In this document: piece by piece, positions 1,157 to 17,983 of the stretch
How positions within the stretch are numbered: the stretch's first letter is position 1
Layout of the letters: each line of letters opens with the position of its first letter
IMG/VR virus record: IMGVR_UViG_3300000115_005261
Location: 1-25,786 of that record
Strand: one strand, 5' to 3'
Origin: a virus
Length of the DNA: 25,786 bases
The notes under the pieces: model-generated
The model's database searches: none
Told to the model about the DNA's origin: nothing
Seen by the model: the letters and a program-made list of their open reading frames with translations, nothing else
Translations under genes and position numbers: made by a program

Positions 1157-1852
1157 ATGGAAAATAAACGAAGAAAAATTCACGAAGAATTAGAAGTAGT
1201 AAAAGTAGGTTATGCAAATGGGGTTGCTGAAGGATTCCCTTTCACTAACATAGAAAAAGCAAGAATGATTGATGATGCAGAAGAAGCTTATGGTAAGTTT
1301 TTAGATGCTTTAAAATGTGATTGGAGAGAAGACCCTAATTCAATGGAAACCCCTCGTCGTGTAGCTAAAGCTTATGTAAATGATTTATGGGCTGGTCGTT
1401 ACACAGCAATGTCTCCTATTACATCATTTCCCTCGGATGGTTATGATGGTATTGTTATAGAACGTAATATACCATTAACTTCAATGTGTTCTCATCACCA
1501 CCAAACAATAGGAGGTGTAGTTCATATTGGATATATTGCAGGAGAAGGTGGTCAAGTAATTGGATTATCTAAATTAAACAGAATTGTAGAACTATTTGGT
1601 CGTAGAGGAGCAATACAAGAACAGTTAACATCAGCTATCCACAATGCTGTAAATAAAATTACAGAAGGTAATAAAGGTGTAATTGTTACTATAGTTGCAG
1701 GACACAACTGTGTTTCATGTAGGGGTGTTAAACACCAAGGCGCTTCAATGGTAACAACTAAGGCATCAGGTGTATTTAAAGATAATACTAATCTAGCTCG
1801 TAAAGAATTTTTTGATAGTCTTAAAATCAATAACGGAGGGCATAACATTTAG
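1157..1852 (+). CDS. folE: GTP cyclohydrolase I
   Basis: This 231-residue protein is a clear FolE. The zinc and catalytic block MCSHHHQTIGG (about 110-120) supplies C111, H113 and H114, and the second block GHNCVSCRGV (about 182-191) supplies H183 and C185, matching the Cys-His-Cys zinc site of the family. GLSKLNRIVELFGRR (about 136-150) is the conserved substrate-pocket helix region. FolE converts GTP to dihydroneopterin triphosphate and formate, the entry to folate and to deazaguanine/queuosine synthesis, and works as a toroidal homodecamer. The length is close to the roughly 220 residues of bacterial enzymes, so the gene looks intact. It opens a transcription unit behind promoter P1. With the queE-like gene upstream it suggests phage-driven preQ0 supply, although folE alone could also raise host folate pools. 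Confidence 0.96.
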   Translation: MENKRRKIHEELEVVKVGYANGVAEGFPFTNIEKARMIDDAEEAYGKFLDALKCDWREDPNSMETPRRVAKAYVNDLWAGRYTAMSPITSFPSDGYDGIVIERNIPLTSMCSHHHQTIGGVVHIGYIAGEGGQVIGLSKLNRIVELFGRRGAIQEQLTSAIHNAVNKITEGNKGVIVTIVAGHNCVSCRGVKHQGASMVTTKASGVFKDNTNLARKEFFDSLKINNGGHNI

Positions 1853-3633: not shown

Positions 3634-5319
3634 ATGTATAAAAAATGTTTTGCACAAAGAAAAGGAGGTAACACTCACCTTATCCATTTATGGACTGATG
3701 AGGAAGGTTATCAAAAAGTAGAATGGAAAAATCAAGCTTATGTAGAGTGTGATGACTCACAAGCCTCTCATACGGGGTTAAATGGGGAGTCTTTACGTAA
3801 AATATCAAATTGGAAACCTGAAAATCCAAAACTTCATTTCCATGATATGCCTGCACATCAAAAGTTTTTAGTTGAAAAGTATGGCATAAATGACGAACCT
3901 TCTACCACTCAAAGGGAAATATTTTTTGATATTGAAACGGAATGGGGGGATGCTCTTACTGAAGAATACATTAAATCTGCTCCTAAAAAGGTTACATCTA
4001 TTGCTTGGTATGATAAACAGGCTGATGAGTGGGGGATATTAATTTTAGATAAAAAATCCCAACTTAGTAGAACTAAAGCTAGGAATAAAGAAATTATACC
4101 TTGTGCTACTGAGGATGAATTATTAATGAAATTTCTAGAAAGATTTAGGGAGATTGATCCTGACATTATAGTAGGGTGGAATAGTGATTATTTTGATGTT
4201 CCCTACCTTTATTATAGAATGTGTAATGTTTTAGGTCAAGATGTAGCCCGTTATCTATCCCCTATTGGTTATGTTCGTGAAACCCCTTGGTATAAAGACC
4301 AGTATATCCAAATAGCAGGAGTTGAATCCTTAGACTATATGCGTTTACATAAAAAGTTTAGTTGGGCTGACGAACCATCATTTAAACTAGATGCTATTGG
4401 TGAGAAGTATGTAGGGATGAAAAAAGTAGAATATGAAGGGAACCTTGATGATTTATTTGAAACAGACATCCATAAATTTATTAAATACAACTTTGTAGAT
4501 GTTGAAATTCTAAAACTATTAGATGAAAAGTTAGAATATTTATCACTTGTTAAAAACTTAGCTCATAAGGGTAAACATAATTACAGTGAAGTATACGCTA
4601 ACACTAAAACCCAAGATGGAGCAATTTCAGCTTACCTTTTAAGTCAAAAGATTGTACCTCCTGCTAAAGAACGCAATCCATTTTCAAAGAAAAACTACGC
4701 TGGTGGTTATTTGTTTTGCCCCAAAGCCGGTATCTATAATTATGTATTTGATGAGGATTTAACATCACTATACCCTTCAATTATTATGACTATTAATATT
4801 GGTAAAGAAACAATGGTTGGCAGGATTATAGATGCTGATGATAGGAATAATCGTTTAGGGCTAAACGATTTAAAACGTAGAGACCCTGAAGAAGAGTTAA
4901 TTGTTGAAAATGCCAAACGCAGTAGAACTAAGGTTAATGTAGGTAGACTAGTAAACATGGTTGAGCAAAATGATCTCTCTATATCCGCAAATGGTGTGAT
5001 GTTTAACACAGATAGAGAATCTGTTTTATCTACTATATTAAAGAAATGGTTTGATGAGAGAGTTTTATATAAAAATGAGATGAAAAAAGCATATAAATCA
5101 GGTAATAAAGAACTAGGGGCTGGTTTTCATATGAAACAGTACACTATGAAAATTTTATTAAATTCCCTCTATGGAGCTACGGCACTTGGTTCATTCCGAT
5201 ATGGTAATGTAATCCTGAGTGAAGCTATAACACTCTCAGGACAGCGTATAATTCAGGAGAGTGCTTTAACAGCTAACAGACATATTAATAAGGTTATTAA
5301 AAATGAAATAGAATTATGA
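3634..5319 (+). CDS. 43A: Family B DNA polymerase, N-terminal cistron (exonuclease, palm motifs A and B)
   Basis: The 561-residue product is the N-terminal two thirds of a T4 gp43-like replicative polymerase. 3'-5' exonuclease motifs: Exo I FFDIETEW (D99, E101), Exo II GWNSDYFDVPYL (about 181-192), Exo III YNFVDVEILK (Y285, D289). Polymerase motif A is DEDLTSLYPSII (about 373-384, metal-binding D375) and motif B is KILLNSLYGA (about 506-515). The frame then stops at TGA 5317-5319, before motif C, which lies in the next cistron. Together the two products total 872 residues, close to the roughly 900 of gp43, so little or nothing is missing. No promoter of the common type precedes it; expression may come from read-through of the terminator at 3577-3604. 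Confidence 0.95.
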   Translation: MYKKCFAQRKGGNTHLIHLWTDEEGYQKVEWKNQAYVECDDSQASHTGLNGESLRKISNWKPENPKLHFHDMPAHQKFLVEKYGINDEPSTTQREIFFDIETEWGDALTEEYIKSAPKKVTSIAWYDKQADEWGILILDKKSQLSRTKARNKEIIPCATEDELLMKFLERFREIDPDIIVGWNSDYFDVPYLYYRMCNVLGQDVARYLSPIGYVRETPWYKDQYIQIAGVESLDYMRLHKKFSWADEPSFKLDAIGEKYVGMKKVEYEGNLDDLFETDIHKFIKYNFVDVEILKLLDEKLEYLSLVKNLAHKGKHNYSEVYANTKTQDGAISAYLLSQKIVPPAKERNPFSKKNYAGGYLFCPKAGIYNYVFDEDLTSLYPSIIMTINIGKETMVGRIIDADDRNNRLGLNDLKRRDPEEELIVENAKRSRTKVNVGRLVNMVEQNDLSISANGVMFNTDRESVLSTILKKWFDERVLYKNEMKKAYKSGNKELGAGFHMKQYTMKILLNSLYGATALGSFRYGNVILSEAITLSGQRIIQESALTANRHINKVIKNEIEL

Positions 5320-6251
5320 AACATATAGAAGATACTCCATGGTGGATTTGTGATCCTGAAGATACTAACTATGTAGCATACTCAGATACTGATTCAATTT
5401 ACATCCATGCTGAACCACTCCTTCGTCATTTATACCCTGATTTTGCAGAAATGCCTAGTGAAGAAAAAGATGATAAGTTAGAAGAAATAGCTTTAAAATA
5501 TCAAGACATTATTACTGATTCTTACAGTGAATTAGCTACAGATTGTTTTAATGCTAAAGGTAAGCACAGACTTGAGATGAAAACTGAATGTGTCATTAGA
5601 GCAGCTTATTTCAGAGCTACTAGAAGGTATGCCCAGTGGATTACTAAACAAGAAGGTATTACAAAAGAATCACTAGATGTTAAGGGTCTTGAATTTAAGA
5701 AAGCAAACTTCCCACCCGTATTAGGTAAATTTTTTCATAAGGCTTTAGTAGATGTATTAAAAGGGGAACAACAGTCTAATATAGATGCCCGTGTTAAAGA
5801 ATTTAAAATCCAAATACTAGATGGTACAATTCCTTTAACCCAACTAGGTAACCCCACATCTGTAAAAACATTAAACAAATACACTGAAAGGGCAGCTCGT
5901 GCTGGTGAGATGTTTACTATAGTGGCTAAAGGGGCACCAGCAGCTGTTAGAGCTGTTATTAGATATAATGATTTACTTAGGTTTTGGGGCTTGAGTAACC
6001 AACATAAAGTAATAACTCAAGGGGAAAAAATTAAATGGATTTATCTAAAATCAAATCCCTATCAGATAGATGCTATTGCATTTTTAGATTTTGATTTACC
6101 ACCAAAAATTGAAAATTTTATTGAGCAATATGCTGATAGAAAAAAGATTTTTGAATCAATTCTTTTAAATAAGTTAGAGGGTTTTTATAATGATCTAGGT
6201 TGGACTCTTTCGTTAAATCCCTATAAGGATATGTTCTTCAACTTAGACTAA
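5316..6251 (+). CDS. 43B: Family B DNA polymerase, C-terminal cistron (motif C, thumb, clamp-binding tail)
   Basis: This 311-residue protein continues the polymerase. Motif C, AYSDTDSIYI at about 21-30 with catalytic D24 and D26, is followed by KHRLEMKTE and TRRYAQWI (thumb-side motif) and ends in YKDMFFNLD, which resembles the clamp-binding tail of gp43. Its ATG overlaps the stop of the first cistron (ATGA, 5316-5319), pointing to translational coupling. A -1 shift could in principle join the frames only between the in-frame TGA at 5304-5306 and 5319, and no slippery heptamer is visible there. Two separate subunits forming one enzyme are therefore more likely. The break falls in the loop before motif C, where a discontinuity need not disturb the fold. 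Confidence 0.93.
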   Translation: MKHIEDTPWWICDPEDTNYVAYSDTDSIYIHAEPLLRHLYPDFAEMPSEEKDDKLEEIALKYQDIITDSYSELATDCFNAKGKHRLEMKTECVIRAAYFRATRRYAQWITKQEGITKESLDVKGLEFKKANFPPVLGKFFHKALVDVLKGEQQSNIDARVKEFKIQILDGTIPLTQLGNPTSVKTLNKYTERAARAGEMFTIVAKGAPAAVRAVIRYNDLLRFWGLSNQHKVITQGEKIKWIYLKSNPYQIDAIAFLDFDLPPKIENFIEQYADRKKIFESILLNKLEGFYNDLGWTLSLNPYKDMFFNLD

Positions 6252-6306: not shown

Positions 6307-7041
6307 ATGATAAGCAAACTACAATTACAAAGTATAATCGATAAGTATTATTTAGGACTAAATGAATCCGTAAAATGGGTAATTAAGGATAAAAAAATAA
6401 GTATTGATTTCATGACCCCTACTAAAGATGTTATTGGTAAAGTTACTAGTGATAATTTTTCTATGGAAGACGGAAATTTGGCAATATATGATACCAAAAA
6501 ATTACAAAGCTTAGTGTCAATATGTAGTGGAGACTTATTACTTGAGTTAGAAAAAAATAATGCTATTACCACTAAGTTAAATGTTTCAGATTTAAATTTT
6601 AACCTAACTTATGCTTTATCTGATCCTTTACTTATTAATAAGGTCGGAACTGTAAATATCCAAGATTGGGTTGTAGAATTAGATATGACTGCTGATGACA
6701 TTACAAACCTTATTAAAGCTAAAAGTGCACTATCCCAAGTGGACAATATGTTAATCACAACAACCGAGAACCTAGACAAAGATAAAGTAGTTGAGTTCAT
6801 ATTTGGAGATGAAGCTGGACATAATAATAAAATTACATATCAGGTAATGGGGAGAGTTGATGAGTTAAACTTACAAATACCATATAACTCAGATGTATTA
6901 AAAACAATACTCCAGGCAAATAAAGATATGGGAGGGGGTAAAATGCTTCTTAGTTCTATGGGTTTACTTAAATTTGAATTTTCAAATGAGGGAACTCATA
7001 GTGAATATTTTATGGTGCGTAGAGCTGAAACTGACTTTTAA
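6307..7041 (+). CDS. 45: DNA polymerase sliding clamp (gp45-like)
   Basis: The 244-residue protein lies directly behind the polymerase and ahead of the clamp loader genes. Its length is near the 228 of T4 gp45. The segment AIYDTKKLQSLVSI (about 59-72) parallels the gp45 'AIYD...' strand-helix, and the C-terminus RRAETDF parallels the gp45 end (THDF). A long mostly beta pattern with one glycine-rich turn (MGGGK) near residue 213 is compatible with the two-domain clamp fold. The clamp would be a homotrimer encircling DNA, tethering the polymerase and, in T4, also stimulating late transcription. Sequence similarity is low, as is usual for this family, so position carries much of the weight. It has its own promoter P2. 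Confidence 0.85.
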   Translation: MISKLQLQSIIDKYYLGLNESVKWVIKDKKISIDFMTPTKDVIGKVTSDNFSMEDGNLAIYDTKKLQSLVSICSGDLLLELEKNNAITTKLNVSDLNFNLTYALSDPLLINKVGTVNIQDWVVELDMTADDITNLIKAKSALSQVDNMLITTTENLDKDKVVEFIFGDEAGHNNKITYQVMGRVDELNLQIPYNSDVLKTILQANKDMGGGKMLLSSMGLLKFEFSNEGTHSEYFMVRRAETDF

Positions 7042-7114: not shown

Positions 7115-7429
7115 ATGTCAAACACAACTATTAAAGATCCCCTTTTAGAACCTTATTTTATAGGGAAAGATTCTCACTGCTACACAGTATATGAGACTGT
7201 ATCTCCTAAAAAGAAAAGATTAGGTAAAAAATTAGAAAAAGGAGAAGTACTCCAAGATTATGAAAAACCACAAGGTCATTATTCTACATTTGGTGCAGCT
7301 TTGCAAAGAATAGCAAAGGAAAAACTAAATAATGGGGAAGAAAATTACTCTAGTGTCCAGGAGTATGTAAAAAAATGGGATGAAATATTAACACAATTAA
7401 AAACATTACAAAATTACAAAGGATTATGA
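7115..7429 (+). CDS. Conserved-looking small protein coupled to groES
   Basis: I do not recognise a named family for this 104-residue protein. It begins with DPLLEPYFIGKDSHCYTVYE, has a basic central part (KKKRLGKKLEKGE) and a helical C-terminal half containing FGAALQRIAKEKLN and a Trp-containing helix. The layout (short beta-like front, YSTFGAAL, helix) is of the kind seen in small phage proteins of unknown function. Its stop overlaps the groES start in ATGA, so the two are translationally coupled, and it is the first gene after promoter P3. This position makes a link with the chaperonin or with replication plausible, but nothing in the sequence proves it. Confidence 0.6.
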   Translation: MSNTTIKDPLLEPYFIGKDSHCYTVYETVSPKKKRLGKKLEKGEVLQDYEKPQGHYSTFGAALQRIAKEKLNNGEENYSSVQEYVKKWDEILTQLKTLQNYKGL

Positions 7430-7725
7430 AAGAATTAAAAGCACTATTTAACGCCGTTATAGTTAAACCTATAGAAGCAGAGGAATCAACCTACGGTTCG
7501 ATAATTGTTCCTGATATGGGGAATGAAAAAAACACAACAGGTGAAGTTATATCTGTTGGACCCGGTCAAAGCACCTTGATGGGAGAGTTTATTCCTACTA
7601 TTAGTAAAGTTGGGGACGTTGTAGTTCTACCAACTCAAGGATTTACCAAACTCCCATTTGAAGGAGATGATTATCTTGTAGGACCCGAAAATCAAATACT
7701 TGCAGCAATAACAACTAAACAATAA
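7426..7725 (+). CDS. groES: Co-chaperonin GroES
   Basis: This 99-residue protein matches GroES in length and layout. It starts with LFNAVIVKPIEAEE, in the place of the E. coli 'LHDRVIVKR' strand. The mobile loop follows (about 20-35) with a hydrophobic Ile-Ile-Val tripeptide in YGSIIVP where GroES carries the GroEL-binding Ile-Val-Leu. Then come TTGEVISVGPG, KVGDVVVLP and a C-terminal ILAAI strand. GroES heptamers cap the GroEL ring. T4 carries only the GroES-like gp31 and borrows host GroEL; here a full groEL follows 5 bases later. The normal mobile loop suggests that it could also bind host GroEL. Confidence 0.95.
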   Translation: MKELKALFNAVIVKPIEAEESTYGSIIVPDMGNEKNTTGEVISVGPGQSTLMGEFIPTISKVGDVVVLPTQGFTKLPFEGDDYLVGPENQILAAITTKQ

Positions 7726-7730
7726 TATAT

Positions 7731-9347
7731 ATGAAAAAAGAAATTAAATTTGGATCTCAAGCAAGAGAAGAATTAATGAAAGGTATCAATCAACTAGCAG
7801 ATGCTGTTGTGTGTACTTTAGGACCAAATGGAAGGAATGTACTAATCGATGAATCTGGTCATAATGGTGATGTAAAACCTATCCATACCAAGGATGGTGT
7901 TACAGTTGCTAAACATATTGGAGTTAATGATTTAACACAAAATCTAGGAGTCCAAATGGTTAAAGAAGCAGCACTGCAAACTGCAGAAAAAGCAGGAGAT
8001 GGTACAACTACTTCTACACTATTAGCTCGTGAGTTAATTAAGTCTGGTTTAAAACATCTTAATAATGGTGAAAATGCTGTTGATATTAAAAAAGGAATTG
8101 ATGCCGCTGTAAAAGAAGTTGTAACATATCTTAGAGACACGATTTCTCAAGAAATATCAAGTGAAGACCAACTAGAACAGATTGCAACTATATCAGCTAA
8201 CAATGATATTGAAGTTGGAAAATTAATTGCTACCGCAATCGAAAAGGTAGGACGTGATGGTGTAGTACACATTGAAGAATCAAAATCAGGAGAAACATAC
8301 CTTGAAACTGTAGAAGGGATGCAGTTTAATAGGGGATATAAATCTCATTTCTTTGTTACTGACAACAATAGTATGAGTTGTACTTTAGAAGATCCTTACA
8401 TTTTAATAGCAGATCATAAATTTACTACTGCTAAAGAATTATTACCAATTTTAGAAAGTATTTCTACTACAAATAAATCCCTACTGATTATTGCCGAAGA
8501 TATTGAAAATGAGGCATTAGCTACCCTAATTGTTAATAAAGCAAGAGGTATTTTAAAAGTAGCAGCAGTAAAAGCCCCAGATTTTGGAGATAGACGAAAA
8601 TTAATCCTTGAAGATATTGCAACTCTAACAGGAGGTACAGTATTTGATAAAGATAAGGGAATGAAACTTGATAAATTTTCTTATGATTGGTTTGGAGAAG
8701 CTCGAACTGTTACAATATCTAAAGAAGAAACTACTATAGTTGATGGTAAGGGTGATGAAGATGCCATTGATCAAAGAGTTAGTGAGTTACAGACACAAAT
8801 TTCAAAATCAGATACCCCATTTGTTACTGAACAATTACAAAACCGTTTAGCTAAAATGGTGGGTGGTGTTTCTATTATCCATGTAGGTGGACATACTGAA
8901 GTAGAAATGAGAGAGAAAAAAGATCGTGTAGATGATGCACTTCATGCTACAAAAGCAGCATTGGAAGGTGGTATTGTTCCTGGAGGAGGAGCGGCATTAT
9001 TACATTCACGTGAAGTTATTAGTCTTGATGGTATAGGTTCTAAAATTGTATATGAGGCATGTGGTAAACCATTTGAGCAAATACTTTTAAACGCAGGTTA
9101 TACGTCAACTGACGCCCAAATGATTGGTAAGCACCAAATAATAACCTCAACAGGGTTTTGGAGTGGTTATAATCTTAAAACAAAAGAGGTTGTAAATATG
9201 TTAGATGCCGGTATTTTAGATCCATCTAAAGTAACAATAACAGCATTAGAAAATGCATCATCTGTAGCAGGTACAGTTTTACTTACAGAATGTTCTGTAG
9301 TAAACCAACCAGCCCCAGAAACTCCACCACAACAACCAATGTACTAG
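7731..9347 (+). CDS. groEL: Chaperonin GroEL (60 kDa)
   Basis: The 538-residue protein is a full-length GroEL (E. coli 548). Nucleotide-binding motifs TLGPNGRNV (about 29-37) and [10 protein letters not shown] (about 89-98, D90 the ATPase-linked Asp) are present. The later ATPase segment [15 protein letters not shown] and the PGGGAAL loop also match the family. The apical domain region contains [11 protein letters not shown], in the place of the E. coli substrate-binding segment. The Gly-Gly-Met tail of cellular GroEL is replaced by [10 protein letters not shown]. The gene seems intact and follows groES by 5 bases under promoter P3. It probably folds phage proteins, such as the capsid protein, or replaces host GroEL at peak demand. 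It differs enough from typical host GroEL for old phage ownership to be plausible, but this was not tested. Confidence 0.97.
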
Positions 9348-9666: not shown

Positions 9667-10581
9667 ATGATAAAAACAGAACACACATTATTAGTTGAAA
9701 GGTATAGACCTACCAAACTAGAAAATTATGTAGGAAATGAGCACATTAAACAGGCAATTTCCAGCTATTTAGGTCAAAATGATATTCAAAATCTAATATT
9801 TTATGGACCTGCCGGAACTGGAAAGACAACACTTGCTAAACTTATTGTTAAAAACCTTAATTGTGATCATCTTTATATTAATGCCTCTGATGAAAGGGGG
9901 ATTGAAACTATTAGAGATAAAGTATCGGGTTTTGCGAGCACAGCTAGTTTTAAACCACTTAAAGTGGTCATTTTGGATGAAGCTGATTTTCTTACTATCC
10001 AAGCGCAGGCTTCTCTCCGCAATGTCATTGAAACCTTTTCTAGAACGACTAGGTTTATAATGACTTGTAACTATGTGGAGCGTATTATAGATCCTTTACA
10101 ATCACGTTGTCAAGTATTAAAAATAGTTCCCCCAACAAAAGTAGATGTTGCCAAACATATTGCTTGGATTTTAGGAGAGGAAAATACTGAATTTGAATTA
10201 GAAGATATTAAGGTAATAACCAACCAATTCTATCCAGATTTACGTAAATGTTTAAATACTATTCAACTATCCACTCAGGATAATAAATTAGCTATTGATA
10301 AATCTATACTTGTATCATCTAATTATATGAATCAAGTATTAGATAAATTAAAATCTAAATCCCCAAATTGGAGAGAAATTAGACAAATTATAGCTAATGC
10401 TAATATTAAGGATTTTGAAGAGTTTTATCGTTACCTATATGATAACTCATCAACATATTTACCAGGAAGTGAAGGGATGGTTGCAGTTTATATTAATGAG
10501 TATAGTTACCAAGCTAATTTCCGTATAGATAAAGAAATAAACTGTTTAGCACTAATATCAAAATTAATAGGATTAAAATAA
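9667..10581 (+). CDS. 44: Sliding-clamp loader large subunit (gp44-like AAA+ ATPase)
   Basis: The 304-residue protein (T4 gp44: 319) carries ERYRPTKLENYVGN near the start, Walker A GPAGTGKTT (about 47-55), Walker B VVILDEADF (about 100-108), a sensor-1 CNY (about 134-136) and the SRC arginine-finger motif in LQSRCQVL (about 144-151). These are the marks of RFC/gp44 clamp loaders, in which four gp44 subunits and one gp62 open the gp45 ring and place it on primed DNA. The C-terminal helical part is less conserved. The conserved start motif lies only about 10 residues from the ATG at 9667, which supports this start even though promoter P4 ends 6 bases upstream. Confidence 0.95.
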   Translation: MIKTEHTLLVERYRPTKLENYVGNEHIKQAISSYLGQNDIQNLIFYGPAGTGKTTLAKLIVKNLNCDHLYINASDERGIETIRDKVSGFASTASFKPLKVVILDEADFLTIQAQASLRNVIETFSRTTRFIMTCNYVERIIDPLQSRCQVLKIVPPTKVDVAKHIAWILGEENTEFELEDIKVITNQFYPDLRKCLNTIQLSTQDNKLAIDKSILVSSNYMNQVLDKLKSKSPNWREIRQIIANANIKDFEEFYRYLYDNSSTYLPGSEGMVAVYINEYSYQANFRIDKEINCLALISKLIGLK

Positions 10582-13165: not shown

Positions 13166-14596
13166 ATGAAAAAAGGTTATATCAAACAGAAAGATAGGAA
13201 AAAAATCCTATTACTTACAGATGACATCCGTGTACATTCTGGAGTTGCTCAGATAGGTAGGGAACTTGTTTTAAATACCGTGGGACATTATAATTGGGTT
13301 CAATTAGCCGGAAGTGTTAAACACCCTGAAAAAGGAAAAATTATTGACCTTTCAGAGGAGATGAACAGAGAACAAGGCATTGAAGATGCTAGTGTTAAGT
13401 TAATCCCTACAGATGGTTATGGGAATGCTGATATTTTAAGAGATGTTATTAGGGAAGAAAAACCTGATGCTATCCTTCTTATTACCGACCCACGTTATTT
13501 CATGTGGTTGTTTCAAATGGAGGAAGAAATAAGAAGTCAAATACCAATAGCTTATCTTAATATTTGGGATGATATGCCTGCACCTCAATACAATGAAGAA
13601 TTTTACGAGTCTTGTGATGCTTTGTTTGGTATTTCAAAACAAACCGTAGCTATTAATGAAATAGTGTTGGGTGAGAAAGCAAAAGATAAAGTAATTAAAT
13701 ATGTCCCTCATGGTTTAAATACTAAAAAGTTTTTCCCTATAGATAAAACAGATGAGGAGTATAACAAGTTTAAAAAAACGATTACTAAAGGACAAGAAAA
13801 GGACTTTATTTTATTTTTTAACTCAAGAAATATTAGAAGAAAAGCACTCCCAGATGCTTTAATAGCCTGGAAAATGTTTACTGACACTCTTACTCCAGAA
13901 GAAAAAGATAAATGTTTGTTTATCTTACACACTGATGTTACAAGCGACCATGGTACGGATATAGTAGCTGTAGTTGATTATTTGTTTAGTGATAATGATA
14001 ATTCCATAGCAATTTCAAATAACAAATTACCAACCACTTATATGAACTATTTGTATAATATGGCTGATGGGGTAGTATTACTTTCATCTGCAGAGGGTTG
14101 GGGGTTATCATTAACTGAATCTTTACTTACGGGTACTCCTTTTATTGCTAACGTGACGGGTGGAATGCAAGACCAGATGAGGTTTGTTGATAATGAGGGT
14201 AAGTGGTATGTCAATTCTAAAGAAGTACCTTCTAATCATAAAGGTACTTACCAAGAACATGGAGAATGGGTACTGCCCGTATTCCCCAAAGCATTGTCCC
14301 TAGTAGGATCACCAACAACCCCTTATATTTGGGATAGTAGATGTGATGCCGGAGAAGCAGCATCACGATTTTCTGAATTATATAATATGTCTGTTTCTGA
14401 AAGGGAATCAAAAGGAAATTTAGGTAGAGAATGGGCGATAGGAGATGAAGCCGGTTTTACATCTATAAAGATGGGAGAAACATTTACTGAAGGGATGGAG
14501 GAATTATTTTCAACTTGGACTCCCCGAGACAATTTTGTATTTTTAAAAGATACAGATTACAAAACAAGAGTTTTAAAACATAAATTAAATTATTAA
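13166..14596 (+). CDS. GT-B glycosyltransferase, GT4-like
   Basis: The 476-residue protein has a Rossmann-like start KILLLTDDIRVHSGVAQIGREL (positions about 13-34, the SGVA acceptor loop). The C-terminal donor site holds SSAEGWGLSLTESLLTGTPF (about 306-325), the GT4 'E-x7-E' motif, followed by IANVTGGMQD. GT4 enzymes are retaining transferases that use nucleotide sugars such as UDP- or GDP-hexoses. The middle part YVPHGLNTKKFFPI is the typical inter-domain linker. No signal peptide is present, so it acts in the cytoplasm. It heads the sugar cassette after a small RHH gene, and its stop overlaps the next start (TAATG). Acceptor unknown: a virion protein, a lipid-linked glycan or DNA are all possible. 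Confidence 0.9.
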   Translation: MKKGYIKQKDRKKILLLTDDIRVHSGVAQIGRELVLNTVGHYNWVQLAGSVKHPEKGKIIDLSEEMNREQGIEDASVKLIPTDGYGNADILRDVIREEKPDAILLITDPRYFMWLFQMEEEIRSQIPIAYLNIWDDMPAPQYNEEFYESCDALFGISKQTVAINEIVLGEKAKDKVIKYVPHGLNTKKFFPIDKTDEEYNKFKKTITKGQEKDFILFFNSRNIRRKALPDALIAWKMFTDTLTPEEKDKCLFILHTDVTSDHGTDIVAVVDYLFSDNDNSIAISNNKLPTTYMNYLYNMADGVVLLSSAEGWGLSLTESLLTGTPFIANVTGGMQDQMRFVDNEGKWYVNSKEVPSNHKGTYQEHGEWVLPVFPKALSLVGSPTTPYIWDSRCDAGEAASRFSELYNMSVSERESKGNLGREWAIGDEAGFTSIKMGETFTEGMEELFSTWTPRDNFVFLKDTDYKTRVLKHKLNY

Positions 14597-15894
14597 TGAG
14601 AAATACATTTTATATAAGCTGTCCAATAGATACCTATTCAGGATATGGAGCAAGAAGTAGAGATTTCGTAAAAGCTATTATTGAGTCTGAAAAATATGAT
14701 GTAGTGATAGTACCTCAGAGGTGGGGTGATACTAGAAAGGGATTTATTAATGATTTTAAAGAATGGGGTTTTTTAAATAATTATTTAATGGACAATGTCA
14801 ACCTTCACAGAGAAAAACCTGACATTTGGTGCCAAATTACAGTACCTAATGAATTTCAAGCTATAGGTCGATATAATATAGGCTTAACTGCTGGTATTGA
14901 AACTACACAATGTGCGGCTTCATGGATAGAAGGATGCAATAGAATGAATTTAGTACTTACTTCTTCAACACATTCTAAAAATGTTTTAGAAATTACTAAA
15001 TATAAAGTAGTAGATAAAAACAACCCAGAAATATCAACAGAATTAAAGCTAACAACCCCCGTAGAAGTATTAATTGAAGGTGTTAATTTAAATGTATATA
15101 AACCTCTCAAAACCCCAATGACTAGTAATAAGCTATACAAACATATAGACTCAATCCCCGAGAATTTTGCATATTTGTTTGTAGGGCATTGGTTACAAGG
15201 AGAAATGGGTGAAGATAGAAAAAATGTAGGGTTAATGTTAAAAGCTTTTTATGAAGTTTTTAAGAATAAATCTAATGCCCCTGCATTAATTCTAAAATCA
15301 AGTTGTGGGAAGGGTTCACATATGGATCGAAGAGAAATAATGAGGAGGATAGATGCTATTAGAAAAACAATAGATGCTAAAATAATCCCTAATGTTTACT
15401 TAATACATGGAGATCTATCAGATGCTGAAATTAATGAACTTTACAACCATCCAAAAGTAAAATCAATGATTTCTGCTACAAAGGGTGAAGGTTTTGGTCG
15501 CCCCCTACTTGAATTTGCATTAACAGGTAAACCCGTCATAGCATCAGGGTGGTCAGGACAAACTGATTTTTTAGATAGTAAACATAATATATTATTAGGT
15601 GGAACTTTAACAAATATCCATCCATCAGCTCAACATCCCGAAATGTTAGTTGAAGGATCTAAATGGTTTTCTGTTGATCATGGCCAACTCGGAAATGCTT
15701 TAGTTGATGTTAAGAAAAACTATAAGGATTGGTATAAAAAGGGTAAAATCCATAAAAATATTTTAAAGAAGAATTTTAGTTATGAAAGCATGAAATCCCA
15801 AATATACGAAATTTTAGATAATAACATATCAAATATACCAGTGGCAGTAAAACTAACACTCCCAAAATTAAATTTACCAAAACTACAAAAATAA
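14596..15894 (+). CDS. GT-B glycosyltransferase, GT1/GT4-type
   Basis: The 432-residue protein starts FYISCPIDTYSGYGARSRDF, a front like that of GT-B transferases with an SGYG acceptor loop, and has the C-terminal donor motif ATKGEGFGRPLLEFALTGKP (about 293-312) followed by VIASGWSGQTDFL. The E-x7-E spacing of retaining enzymes is kept (GEGFGRPLLE). The middle segment VEVLIEGVNLNVYKPL is the domain linker. It is a paralogue-like neighbour of the first GT4 gene but not obviously a recent duplicate. Its start overlaps that gene by one base, so the two may act on successive sugars of the same glycan. Confidence 0.9.
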   Translation: MRNTFYISCPIDTYSGYGARSRDFVKAIIESEKYDVVIVPQRWGDTRKGFINDFKEWGFLNNYLMDNVNLHREKPDIWCQITVPNEFQAIGRYNIGLTAGIETTQCAASWIEGCNRMNLVLTSSTHSKNVLEITKYKVVDKNNPEISTELKLTTPVEVLIEGVNLNVYKPLKTPMTSNKLYKHIDSIPENFAYLFVGHWLQGEMGEDRKNVGLMLKAFYEVFKNKSNAPALILKSSCGKGSHMDRREIMRRIDAIRKTIDAKIIPNVYLIHGDLSDAEINELYNHPKVKSMISATKGEGFGRPLLEFALTGKPVIASGWSGQTDFLDSKHNILLGGTLTNIHPSAQHPEMLVEGSKWFSVDHGQLGNALVDVKKNYKDWYKKGKIHKNILKKNFSYESMKSQIYEILDNNISNIPVAVKLTLPKLNLPKLQK

Positions 15895-15898
15895 AATT

Positions 15899-16369
15899 AT
15901 GGATAACTTAATAGAATGCGATAGATGTGGATCTGATGCTTGTTATATGCAAGAGGTTAACCACGAAGTAAAAAACTACCAATGTTATGGGTGTGGTTTT
16001 ATAACTAATTCTTTACTAGTTGAAGGGTCACAGTTTTTTGAAGACCAGATGGAATTACTTCCTAGCTTATATAAAGAACTAATGGGGGAAGATAAAAATG
16101 GCAAAATTTGGATGCCTTCAACAGTAAATATGCCATCTTTAGGGATGATATTTGCTAATGGTAAAAGTGGTGCTAATTGGAAATGGGCTGCAGTGTTAGC
16201 CGTACCTGTTAAAGATGAAGAAAAAGAAAAATACCCAATCCCCAATAAAGAAGGAGAATTTTATGAGTGGAGGATGGATATGGAAACTATGAAAGAATTT
16301 GATGAATGTGATTACCTAGAAGCTTTAGATTATATAGGAATTTTTAATCAAGAGGAGAATGCAGATTAG
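15899..16369 (+). CDS. Zinc-ribbon protein of unknown function in the sugar cassette
   Basis: The N-terminus of this 156-residue protein has IECDRCGSDACYM and YQCYGCGF, giving C7, C10 and C29, C32: a four-cysteine zinc ribbon. The rest is acidic, with the Trp-containing stretch KIWMPSTVNMPSLG (about 70-83) and GANWKWAAVLAV (about 95-106), which reads like a compact domain. No catalytic motif was recognised. The end overlaps the next glycosyltransferase start by 11 bases. Zinc-ribbon proteins are common in T4-like phages; whether this one serves transcription or sugar modification is not shown. Confidence 0.65.
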   Translation: MDNLIECDRCGSDACYMQEVNHEVKNYQCYGCGFITNSLLVEGSQFFEDQMELLPSLYKELMGEDKNGKIWMPSTVNMPSLGMIFANGKSGANWKWAAVLAVPVKDEEKEKYPIPNKEGEFYEWRMDMETMKEFDECDYLEALDYIGIFNQEENAD

Positions 16370-16988
16370 TTATGCAGTAACCGTATGTGATGAGTTTCTT
16401 GAAATACAGAGACTCCTTTCACTATTACTAAACAATAAAAGAAGTCAAGATGAAATTGTAGTATTAGTTGATTTATCTAAAAATAAACCAACATCTGAAT
16501 TACTTAGGTACCTCCATGAATTAAGTTCTGAAGACTACATAACATTAGTTGAAGATAAGTTTAATAAGCACTTTGCTGATTGGAAAAATAAATTAACTAA
16601 AACCTGTAAGGGGGATTACATATTCCAAATAGATGCAGATGAATACCCTCATACAAATTTAATTACAAACTTACCATCTCTTTTAGAGGCTAACCCTGAA
16701 GTTGATATGTTAAGAGTCCCTAGAGTGAATACTGTAGACGGGCTTACAGAAGAACATATTAAGAAATGGGGTTGGAGGGTAAATGAAAAAGGTTGGATTA
16801 ATTGGGCTGATTGGCAGATGAGAATATATAAAAACCACCCAGATATTATATGGGTTAATAAAGTACATGAAGTGTTAGAGGGATATAAAGTGCATGGTAT
16901 GTTACCTTTAGAAGAAGAGTGGGCCTTATACCACCCAAAAGACATTAAACGTCAAGAAAAACAAAATAACTATTACGATACGATATGA
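16359..16988 (+). CDS. GT2-family glycosyltransferase (LgtF/WaaE-like)
   Basis: The 209-residue protein begins ISYAVTVCDEFLEIQRLL, the GT2 beta-alpha start. It has the LgtF/WaaE-type segment HFADWKNKLTKTCKGDYIF (about 67-85) leading into QIDADEYPH, in which D-A-D binds the metal and nucleotide sugar. The C-terminal NKVHEVL also occurs in this subfamily. It is cytoplasmic and inverting by family. A purine-rich AGAGGAG lies just before the ATG at 16359, unusual for this window, where most starts lack a Shine-Dalgarno, and the start overlaps the zinc-ribbon gene by 11 bases. The stop overlaps the epimerase start in ATGA. Confidence 0.87.
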   Translation: MQISYAVTVCDEFLEIQRLLSLLLNNKRSQDEIVVLVDLSKNKPTSELLRYLHELSSEDYITLVEDKFNKHFADWKNKLTKTCKGDYIFQIDADEYPHTNLITNLPSLLEANPEVDMLRVPRVNTVDGLTEEHIKKWGWRVNEKGWINWADWQMRIYKNHPDIIWVNKVHEVLEGYKVHGMLPLEEEWALYHPKDIKRQEKQNNYYDTI

Positions 16989-17983
16989 AAAAAACAGTTT
17001 TAATTACAGGTGTAGCGGGTTTACTTGGAAGTAGGCTAGCAGATTGGATTATAGAAAACAAACCAGAATATAAAGTTGTTGGAATTGACGATTTAAGTGG
17101 GGGTTATGAAGAAAATATTAACCCAAAAGTAGATTTTTGGCAAATGAACCTAACAGAACACCCTTTAGAAAATTGCTTTGAAGTAAATAACTTTGATTAT
17201 GTTTTTCACTTTGCGGCCTATGCAGCCGAAGGTTTATCTCCATTTATACGGTGTTATAACTATGATAATAATTTAAAATCAACGGCGCGTATAGTTAACG
17301 AGTGCATTAAAAACAACGTTAAAAGACTGGTATTTACGTCAACTTTAGCTGTATATGGTCATGGGGATGGGGGAATATTTGATGAAGACCAACAACAATC
17401 ACCTATAGACCCTTATGGAGTTGCAAAATATGCTTGTGAAATGGATATTCAAATAGCTAATGAGCAACATGGACTAGATTACACCATCATCAGACCTCAT
17501 AATGTTTATGGTATAAAACAAAATATATGGGACAAGTATAGAAATGTGCTTGGGATTTGGATGTATCAATATTTAAATGGAGAGCCTATGACAATATTTG
17601 GAGATGGTGATCAAACTAGAGCATTTAGCTTTATAGATGACTCAATTGAACCTCTATGGAATGCAGCTGTAAGACCAGAAGCTAGTAAACAAATAATTAA
17701 TTTAGGGGGAATTGAAGAAGTATCTATTAATGATGCCTGTTCTATTTTAAGAGAAGTTATAGGTGATGGAGAAATAGTTCATTTAGAAGGTAGACATGAA
17801 GTTAAACATTCTATCCCAACATATCAAAAGTCAATTGATTTATTAGGGTTTGAATATAAAACTTCAATGAAAGAAGGCTTAACACAAATGTGGGAATGGG
17901 CTAAAAAACAACCTATGAGAGATAGGTTTGTGTGGCCTTCATATGAAATTGAAAAAGGAATTTATAGTTATTGGAAAAAATGA
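16985..17983 (+). CDS. NAD-dependent nucleotide-sugar epimerase/dehydratase (GalE-like)
   Basis: The 332-residue protein is an extended short-chain dehydrogenase: the NAD-binding glycine motif ITGVAGLLGSRL (about 7-18; G9, G12, G15), FHFAAYA (about 74-80), FTSTLAVYG (about 117-125) and the active-site pair Y144 and K148 in DPYGVAKY. GalE-like relatives interconvert UDP-sugars; related enzymes are 4,6-dehydratases, and the exact reaction cannot be read off. It would supply a sugar donor for the neighbouring transferases. Its ATG overlaps the previous stop, and its own stop overlaps the following ATG. Confidence 0.9.
   Translation: MKKTVLITGVAGLLGSRLADWIIENKPEYKVVGIDDLSGGYEENINPKVDFWQMNLTEHPLENCFEVNNFDYVFHFAAYAAEGLSPFIRCYNYDNNLKSTARIVNECIKNNVKRLVFTSTLAVYGHGDGGIFDEDQQQSPIDPYGVAKYACEMDIQIANEQHGLDYTIIRPHNVYGIKQNIWDKYRNVLGIWMYQYLNGEPMTIFGDGDQTRAFSFIDDSIEPLWNAAVRPEASKQIINLGGIEEVSINDACSILREVIGDGEIVHLEGRHEVKHSIPTYQKSIDLLGFEYKTSMKEGLTQMWEWAKKQPMRDRFVWPSYEIEKGIYSYWKK

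Follow-up and report, generated by a model that had tools for sequence, protein, structure and literature searches.

A gp43-type DNA polymerase encoded as two chains by a phage clade with an inherited break ahead of motif C

How can a replicative DNA polymerase persist when its gene is cut between the catalytic aspartates of the palm, and where does such a cut come from? The question is raised by a stretch of 25,786 nucleotides, IMG/VR virus record IMGVR_UViG_3300000115_005261, referred to here in its whole length as the window. An earlier note, made from the letters of this DNA alone, had proposed that a gp43 polymerase is split there between motifs B and C, with the exonuclease and motifs A and B on the first cistron and DTDS on the second.

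The two cistrons and their junction

The features of the window relevant to this question are as follows.

3634–5319, plus strand: N-terminal polymerase chain, 561 aa, with the 3'-5' exonuclease domain and polymerase motifs A and B (PF03104, PF00136, RB69 alignment, PHROG_262 positions 12–569)
4756–4782, plus strand: polymerase motif A, DLTSLYPSI (D375), aligned to RB69 D411
5149–5172, plus strand: polymerase motif B, KILLNSLY (K506–Y513), aligned to RB69 K560–Y567
5316–5319, plus strand: ATGA start/stop overlap; break at about RB69 611, in the loop that connects the helix following motif B with the strand of motif C (RB69 alignment, model)
5316–6251, plus strand: C-terminal polymerase chain, 311 aa, with the motif C strand of the palm, the remaining palm and the thumb (RB69 alignment, PHROG_262 positions 565–844)
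5385–5396, plus strand: polymerase motif C, DTDS (D24–S27 of the second chain), aligned to RB69 D621/D623
6307–7041, plus strand: candidate sliding clamp of 244 aa, proposed from its location and length; Pfam gave no match and PHROG a weak one, to a family without assigned function
9667–10581, plus strand: large subunit of the clamp loader (gp44-like), belonging to the same replication cluster (phrog_168, E 4.6e-78; PF00004)

The proposed split proved to be real. ORF calling reproduced the 4-base overlap and the summed length of 872 aa given in the earlier note, and the alignment to RB69 gp43 confirmed the assignment of motifs to the two cistrons. Indeed, the counterparts of RB69 D411 and K560/N564/Y567 (D375 and K506/N510/Y513) all lie in the first ORF and those of D621/D623 (D24/D26) in the second, the catalytic residues being all kept across the two chains. 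Since these cover adjoining stretches of PHROG_262 (T4-type DNA polymerase, 856 positions), nothing large is missing or duplicated. Furthermore, family profile A1 finds RB69 gp43 with an E-value of 5.9e-170, and the profile of the C-chain family aligns to its residues 605–884. The exonuclease domain and motifs A, B and C with their catalytic residues mark the pair as a predicted T4-type family B polymerase (gp43). The putative clamp-binding tail that the earlier note placed on the second cistron amounts to a short ...MFFNLD end. The type of junction is ordinary in the window, since the same 4-base overlap joins 6 of its 39 neighbouring ORF pairs. Further downstream, at 7426–9347, adjacent GroES-like (Cpn10, PF00166) and GroEL-like (Cpn60, PF00118) phage genes are found.

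To locate the break in the fold, we relied on a model of the intact relative L213 (888 aa; loci are designated here by L numbers), which has a pLDDT of 88.8 and matches RB69 gp43 at E 1e-54 with a TM of about 0.8. The break maps to residues ~560–582 of L213, a lower-confidence region between helix 530–559 and the motif C strand, and is thus predicted to lie in a surface loop, which is about 16 residues shorter in more distant intact polymerases. The second chain of the window modelled alone reached a pLDDT of 61, which fell below 50 in the motif C region and at residues 84–130; the model was too weak for a fold search. This outcome would fit a dependence of the C chain on the first chain, which it does not prove; since the model was built from only 13 sequences, the poor palm may also reflect shallow data.

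Inheritance of the break among relatives

The search for relatives with the same break, which the earlier note had suggested, was carried out in IMG/VR with the second chain; the best 80 of 433 related stretches were kept and further searches added loci, giving 239 loci classed as split and 118 as intact. At least 147 distinct split sequences from many metagenomes, the independent LR756508 excluded, form the set of the window and have the same break. Their junctions consist of 46 ATGA overlaps, 9 TAATG sequences, 5 spacers of 2–55 nt and 87 intervals of 207–4214 nt. A single-genome indel from assembly or sequencing was considered, since a one-base change could fuse or separate the frames and the window comes from one virus record of 25.8 kb, but with 147 relatives sharing the break, at differing junctions and even with whole genes inside it, the chance of such an artefact is negligible.

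As in frameshift cassettes, the overlapping ORFs are in different frames, which could suggest a programmed frameshift at the junction that yields a fused full-length polymerase. However, the TGA at 5304–5306 closes the second frame, leaving a short stretch in which no slippery site was obvious by eye, and the TAATG junctions, spacers and inserted genes of the relatives keep no constant frame relation, which makes this mechanism very improbable. The same mixture of overlaps, spacers and whole genes excludes the recent frameshift preserved by coupling that the earlier note had offered as one possible origin. Its other proposal, that the split is ancient and was cleaned up, stands in its first part, given the 147 distinct split sequences and dN/dS values of 0.02–0.14. 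These values were obtained for both polymerase halves, which are under strong purifying selection, and the break itself is a long-standing condition that this phage clade has inherited.

In four relatives of 158–164 kb, records whose completeness is uncertified, the split gene is the sole PolB match and neither PolA nor PolIII alpha was found; a backup polymerase was accordingly discarded for these four. They carry a gp23-type major capsid gene (E about 1e-76), the window being a fragment without that region. Contigs with the split gene occur in MAGs labelled Flavobacteriales, Flavobacteriaceae and Pelagibacter, labels that only hint at the host. The virus of the window is a putative T4-like phage of marine bacteria. 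As a separate hint at the host group, the GTP cyclohydrolase I gene of the window (1157–1852) shares 74.6% DNA identity with Flavobacterium phage immuto across about 384 nt.

Two individual loci deviate around motif C. The second half of L077 (4884–5816) reads YSDT-stop-A-DSIY, with an in-frame stop within the motif C region where relatives have DTDS, due either to real inactivation or to sequence error; in L220 (1637–1720), a split locus that is otherwise normal, frame changes disrupt the sequence around YSDTDS.

Genes in the break and the history of the split

The most common insert in the break is an 88-aa ORF, present in 74 loci, whose product has no Pfam or PHROG match; homologues of this protein also occur elsewhere in 8 of the 10 tested relatives with clean junctions. 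Other breaks hold DUF6165, a mannose-6-phosphate isomerase-like cupin, a cytidylyltransferase-like protein, Smr, DUF2452 and sugar-related genes. An endonuclease-type gene was found in the break of only two members of the set of 147: L046, with a SegE-type GIY-YIG protein over the Pfam cut-off, and L217, with T5orf172, a gene also present in the breaks of L478 and L506. The window itself contains neither a homologue of the insert proteins of its relatives nor an endonuclease or recognisable remnant of one. The earlier description of a split without insertion is thus correct for this genome and incorrect for the clade: since 87 of the 147 relatives carry genes in the break, the clean junction is one end state. 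For the ancestor of the clade, parsimony favours neither a clean junction nor one with the 88-aa gene, which leaves "cleaned up" likely and no firmer. The sugar-related genes mentioned above lie in the polymerase breaks of L074 and L324/L346, and the window has a run of glycosyltransferase and NAD-dependent epimerase genes at 13166–17983.

A sister radiation contains polymerases split at the same loop as in the window, namely L394, L395, L399, L404 and L420, L424, L434, interleaved with intact sisters. The break of L395 holds a GIY-YIG gene over the Pfam cut-off, that of L399 a GIY-YIG match below the threshold and that of L404 a close homologue, by eye, of the L399 protein; L394 has a GIY-YIG-like ORF seen by eye only, with no Pfam match, and L420 an endonuclease VII-like ORF. 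One-clade hypotheses were rejected for this radiation (AU p 1.6e-4 and 1.65e-4). An origin by endonuclease insertion is well supported there, and splitting at this loop has occurred repeatedly outside the clade of the window.

Closer to the window, a second split clade (L217, L388–L392, L478–L509), with T5orf172 or the 88-aa gene in the break, adjoins the intact L213/L215/L468–477. A first tree, based on few data, placed L217 with intact relatives; more loci were then added. It is possible that the wider clade of the window split only once and that this intact group is re-fused, since these closest intact relatives stand beside split lineages and are about 16 residues longer at the break than more distant intact polymerases. 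Indeed, they branch among the split lineages with support of 98/91 and 96/91, the extra residues lie exactly at the break, and the two split clades resemble each other in their head and tail sequences and have the 88-aa gene in the break in common. However, the larger tree rejects neither all split rows nor all intact rows of the wider clade as one clade (AU p 0.38 and 0.55, respectively), and horizontal transfer of a split junction would yield the same pattern. We consider the single split with re-fusion rather unlikely; it concerns history only and is compatible with a two-chain enzyme.

Transfer of the junction is addressed by the DNA flanking it. Near the break, split alleles are closer in sequence to one another than to their intact sisters. 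For instance, L420 and its intact sister L414 have about 82–92% DNA identity over most stretches and 61% over the first 75 nt from motif C, whereas L420 and the more distant split L424 have 92% over these 75 nt. Informative sites in 11 trios show an excess near the break, with odds ratios of 2.2–7.6 and nominal p values from 4e-4 to 6e-15, which are descriptive since the sites are not independent and the trios overlap. Chimeric metagenome contigs could mimic single trio cases, hardly all of them. Flanking DNA that tracks whether an allele is split, and not the gene tree, would be expected from homing with co-conversion; in the wider clade of the window, the pattern could instead reflect replacement or re-fusion of the intact group. 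A tentative reading, in our view somewhat short of an even chance, is that the chain break is a mobile allele: the stop/start junction with some 60 codons of flank would spread by homing-like co-conversion, and intact and split forms would interconvert, including a re-fusion that left the 16-residue scar in L213/L468.

Taken together, we think it likely that the two cistrons of the window encode one gp43-type family B polymerase as two assembling chains, with an old inherited break that probably arose through insertion of a homing-type endonuclease gene later lost or replaced. Such a gene would insert beside the conserved codons of motif C and would thereby supply a new stop to what lies upstream and a new start to what lies downstream. 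After its loss or replacement the break would persist, many relatives now holding unrelated small genes there, and the window would be a clean end state. The ATGA overlap probably couples translation of the second chain to that of the first, and the two products would reassemble into one gp43-like enzyme. It seems that an essential replicative polymerase can persist stably across a large clade in the form of two chains, with the cut between its catalytic aspartates, and that the loop ahead of motif C, being broken repeatedly, offers a natural site for dividing gp43-type polymerases. Furthermore, since living relatives display the stages, namely an endonuclease-type gene, cargo genes, a clean overlap and possibly a re-fused gene, the proposed route by which an inserted homing endonuclease gene leads to a permanent two-subunit enzyme can be tested, both comparatively and at the bench.

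Comparison with known split polymerases

Some polymerases in two pieces are associated with inteins. The PolB of the jumbo phage MIJ3 is encoded in two ORFs with an HNH endonuclease gene between them, and its halves, which carry intein parts, are presumably spliced (PMC6892783, where Dassa et al. 2009 is cited for fractured genes). In LR756508, a 484 kb uncultured phage, PolB is broken ahead of motif C, in the same loop as in the window; its halves, 31–33% identical to those of the window, are about 3 kb apart with other genes between them, and both have intein-like insertions, at motifs B and C. This locus appears to be a further independent split at this loop. These cases raise the alternative of a "fractured gene", in which a split intein would join the halves after translation or a group I intron would do so at the RNA level. 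Unlike the MIJ3 halves, those of the window contain no intein parts: the first chain ends about 30 residues past the GQ motif and the second starts 23 residues before DTDS, ends too short to leave room for them. The window has no intervening sequence at all, no extra sequence beyond about 16 residues is present at the break, and no Rfam match was obtained in the window or in 13 related loci. Joining by either route is therefore most unlikely, and two separate chains are the preferred reading.

Intein-like sequences were also noted at particular loci. In LR756508 (L083, 9001–16925), one insertion follows KILIN (motif B) and another lies inside motif C. In L449, L450, L451 and L456, the first PolB piece has an intein-like end, KKVSELTENDDVLI, and a separate downstream piece lies at motif C with a 275-aa ORF between them, an organization that resembles a fractured intein arrangement.

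Reassembly of the two chains into one working gp43-like polymerase is the most likely outcome by analogy with two systems. The polymerase halves of Aeromonas phage 25 co-purify and are active, according to a passage of PMC2988022 citing Petrov et al. 2010, and the PolB of Methanothermobacter thermautotrophicus consists of two polypeptides, according to a passage of PMC7776575 citing Kelman et al. 1999. The latter is likewise a family B enzyme in two chains; it differs in being archaeal. OM43 marine phages of the MEP401 type, related to Zobellviridae, have a polymerase, possibly of a type other than T4-type PolB, in two genes with a small uncharacterised ORF between them (PMC10580990). Our literature search, covering few subscription journals, found no published split polymerase at the site described here.

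The closest parallel is 43A/43B of Aeromonas phages 44RR and 25, a T4-type PolB in two cistrons with palm motifs A and C on separate chains. The earlier note had drawn this parallel, which applies to the kind of split, and had regarded palm aspartates on two chains as structurally unusual, a feature not unique to the window, since the 44RR break also parts motif A from motif C. The break of phage 25 holds a GIY-YIG endonuclease gene, as do those of some relatives of the window; the window has a 4-base overlap and no spacer or homing endonuclease gene there, although some relatives do. The site is where the parallel fails: the 44RR/25 break follows residue 498 of 43A, which corresponds to a fingers position (RB69 ~512) and leaves motif B to the second piece, whereas that of the window lies at RB69 ~611, with motif B in the first piece and no spacer, and is conserved across a large clade. 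The two breaks are thus different events. Endonuclease-associated splitting of gp43 is of a known kind, while the site, the conservation and the proposed mobility of the present break are new.
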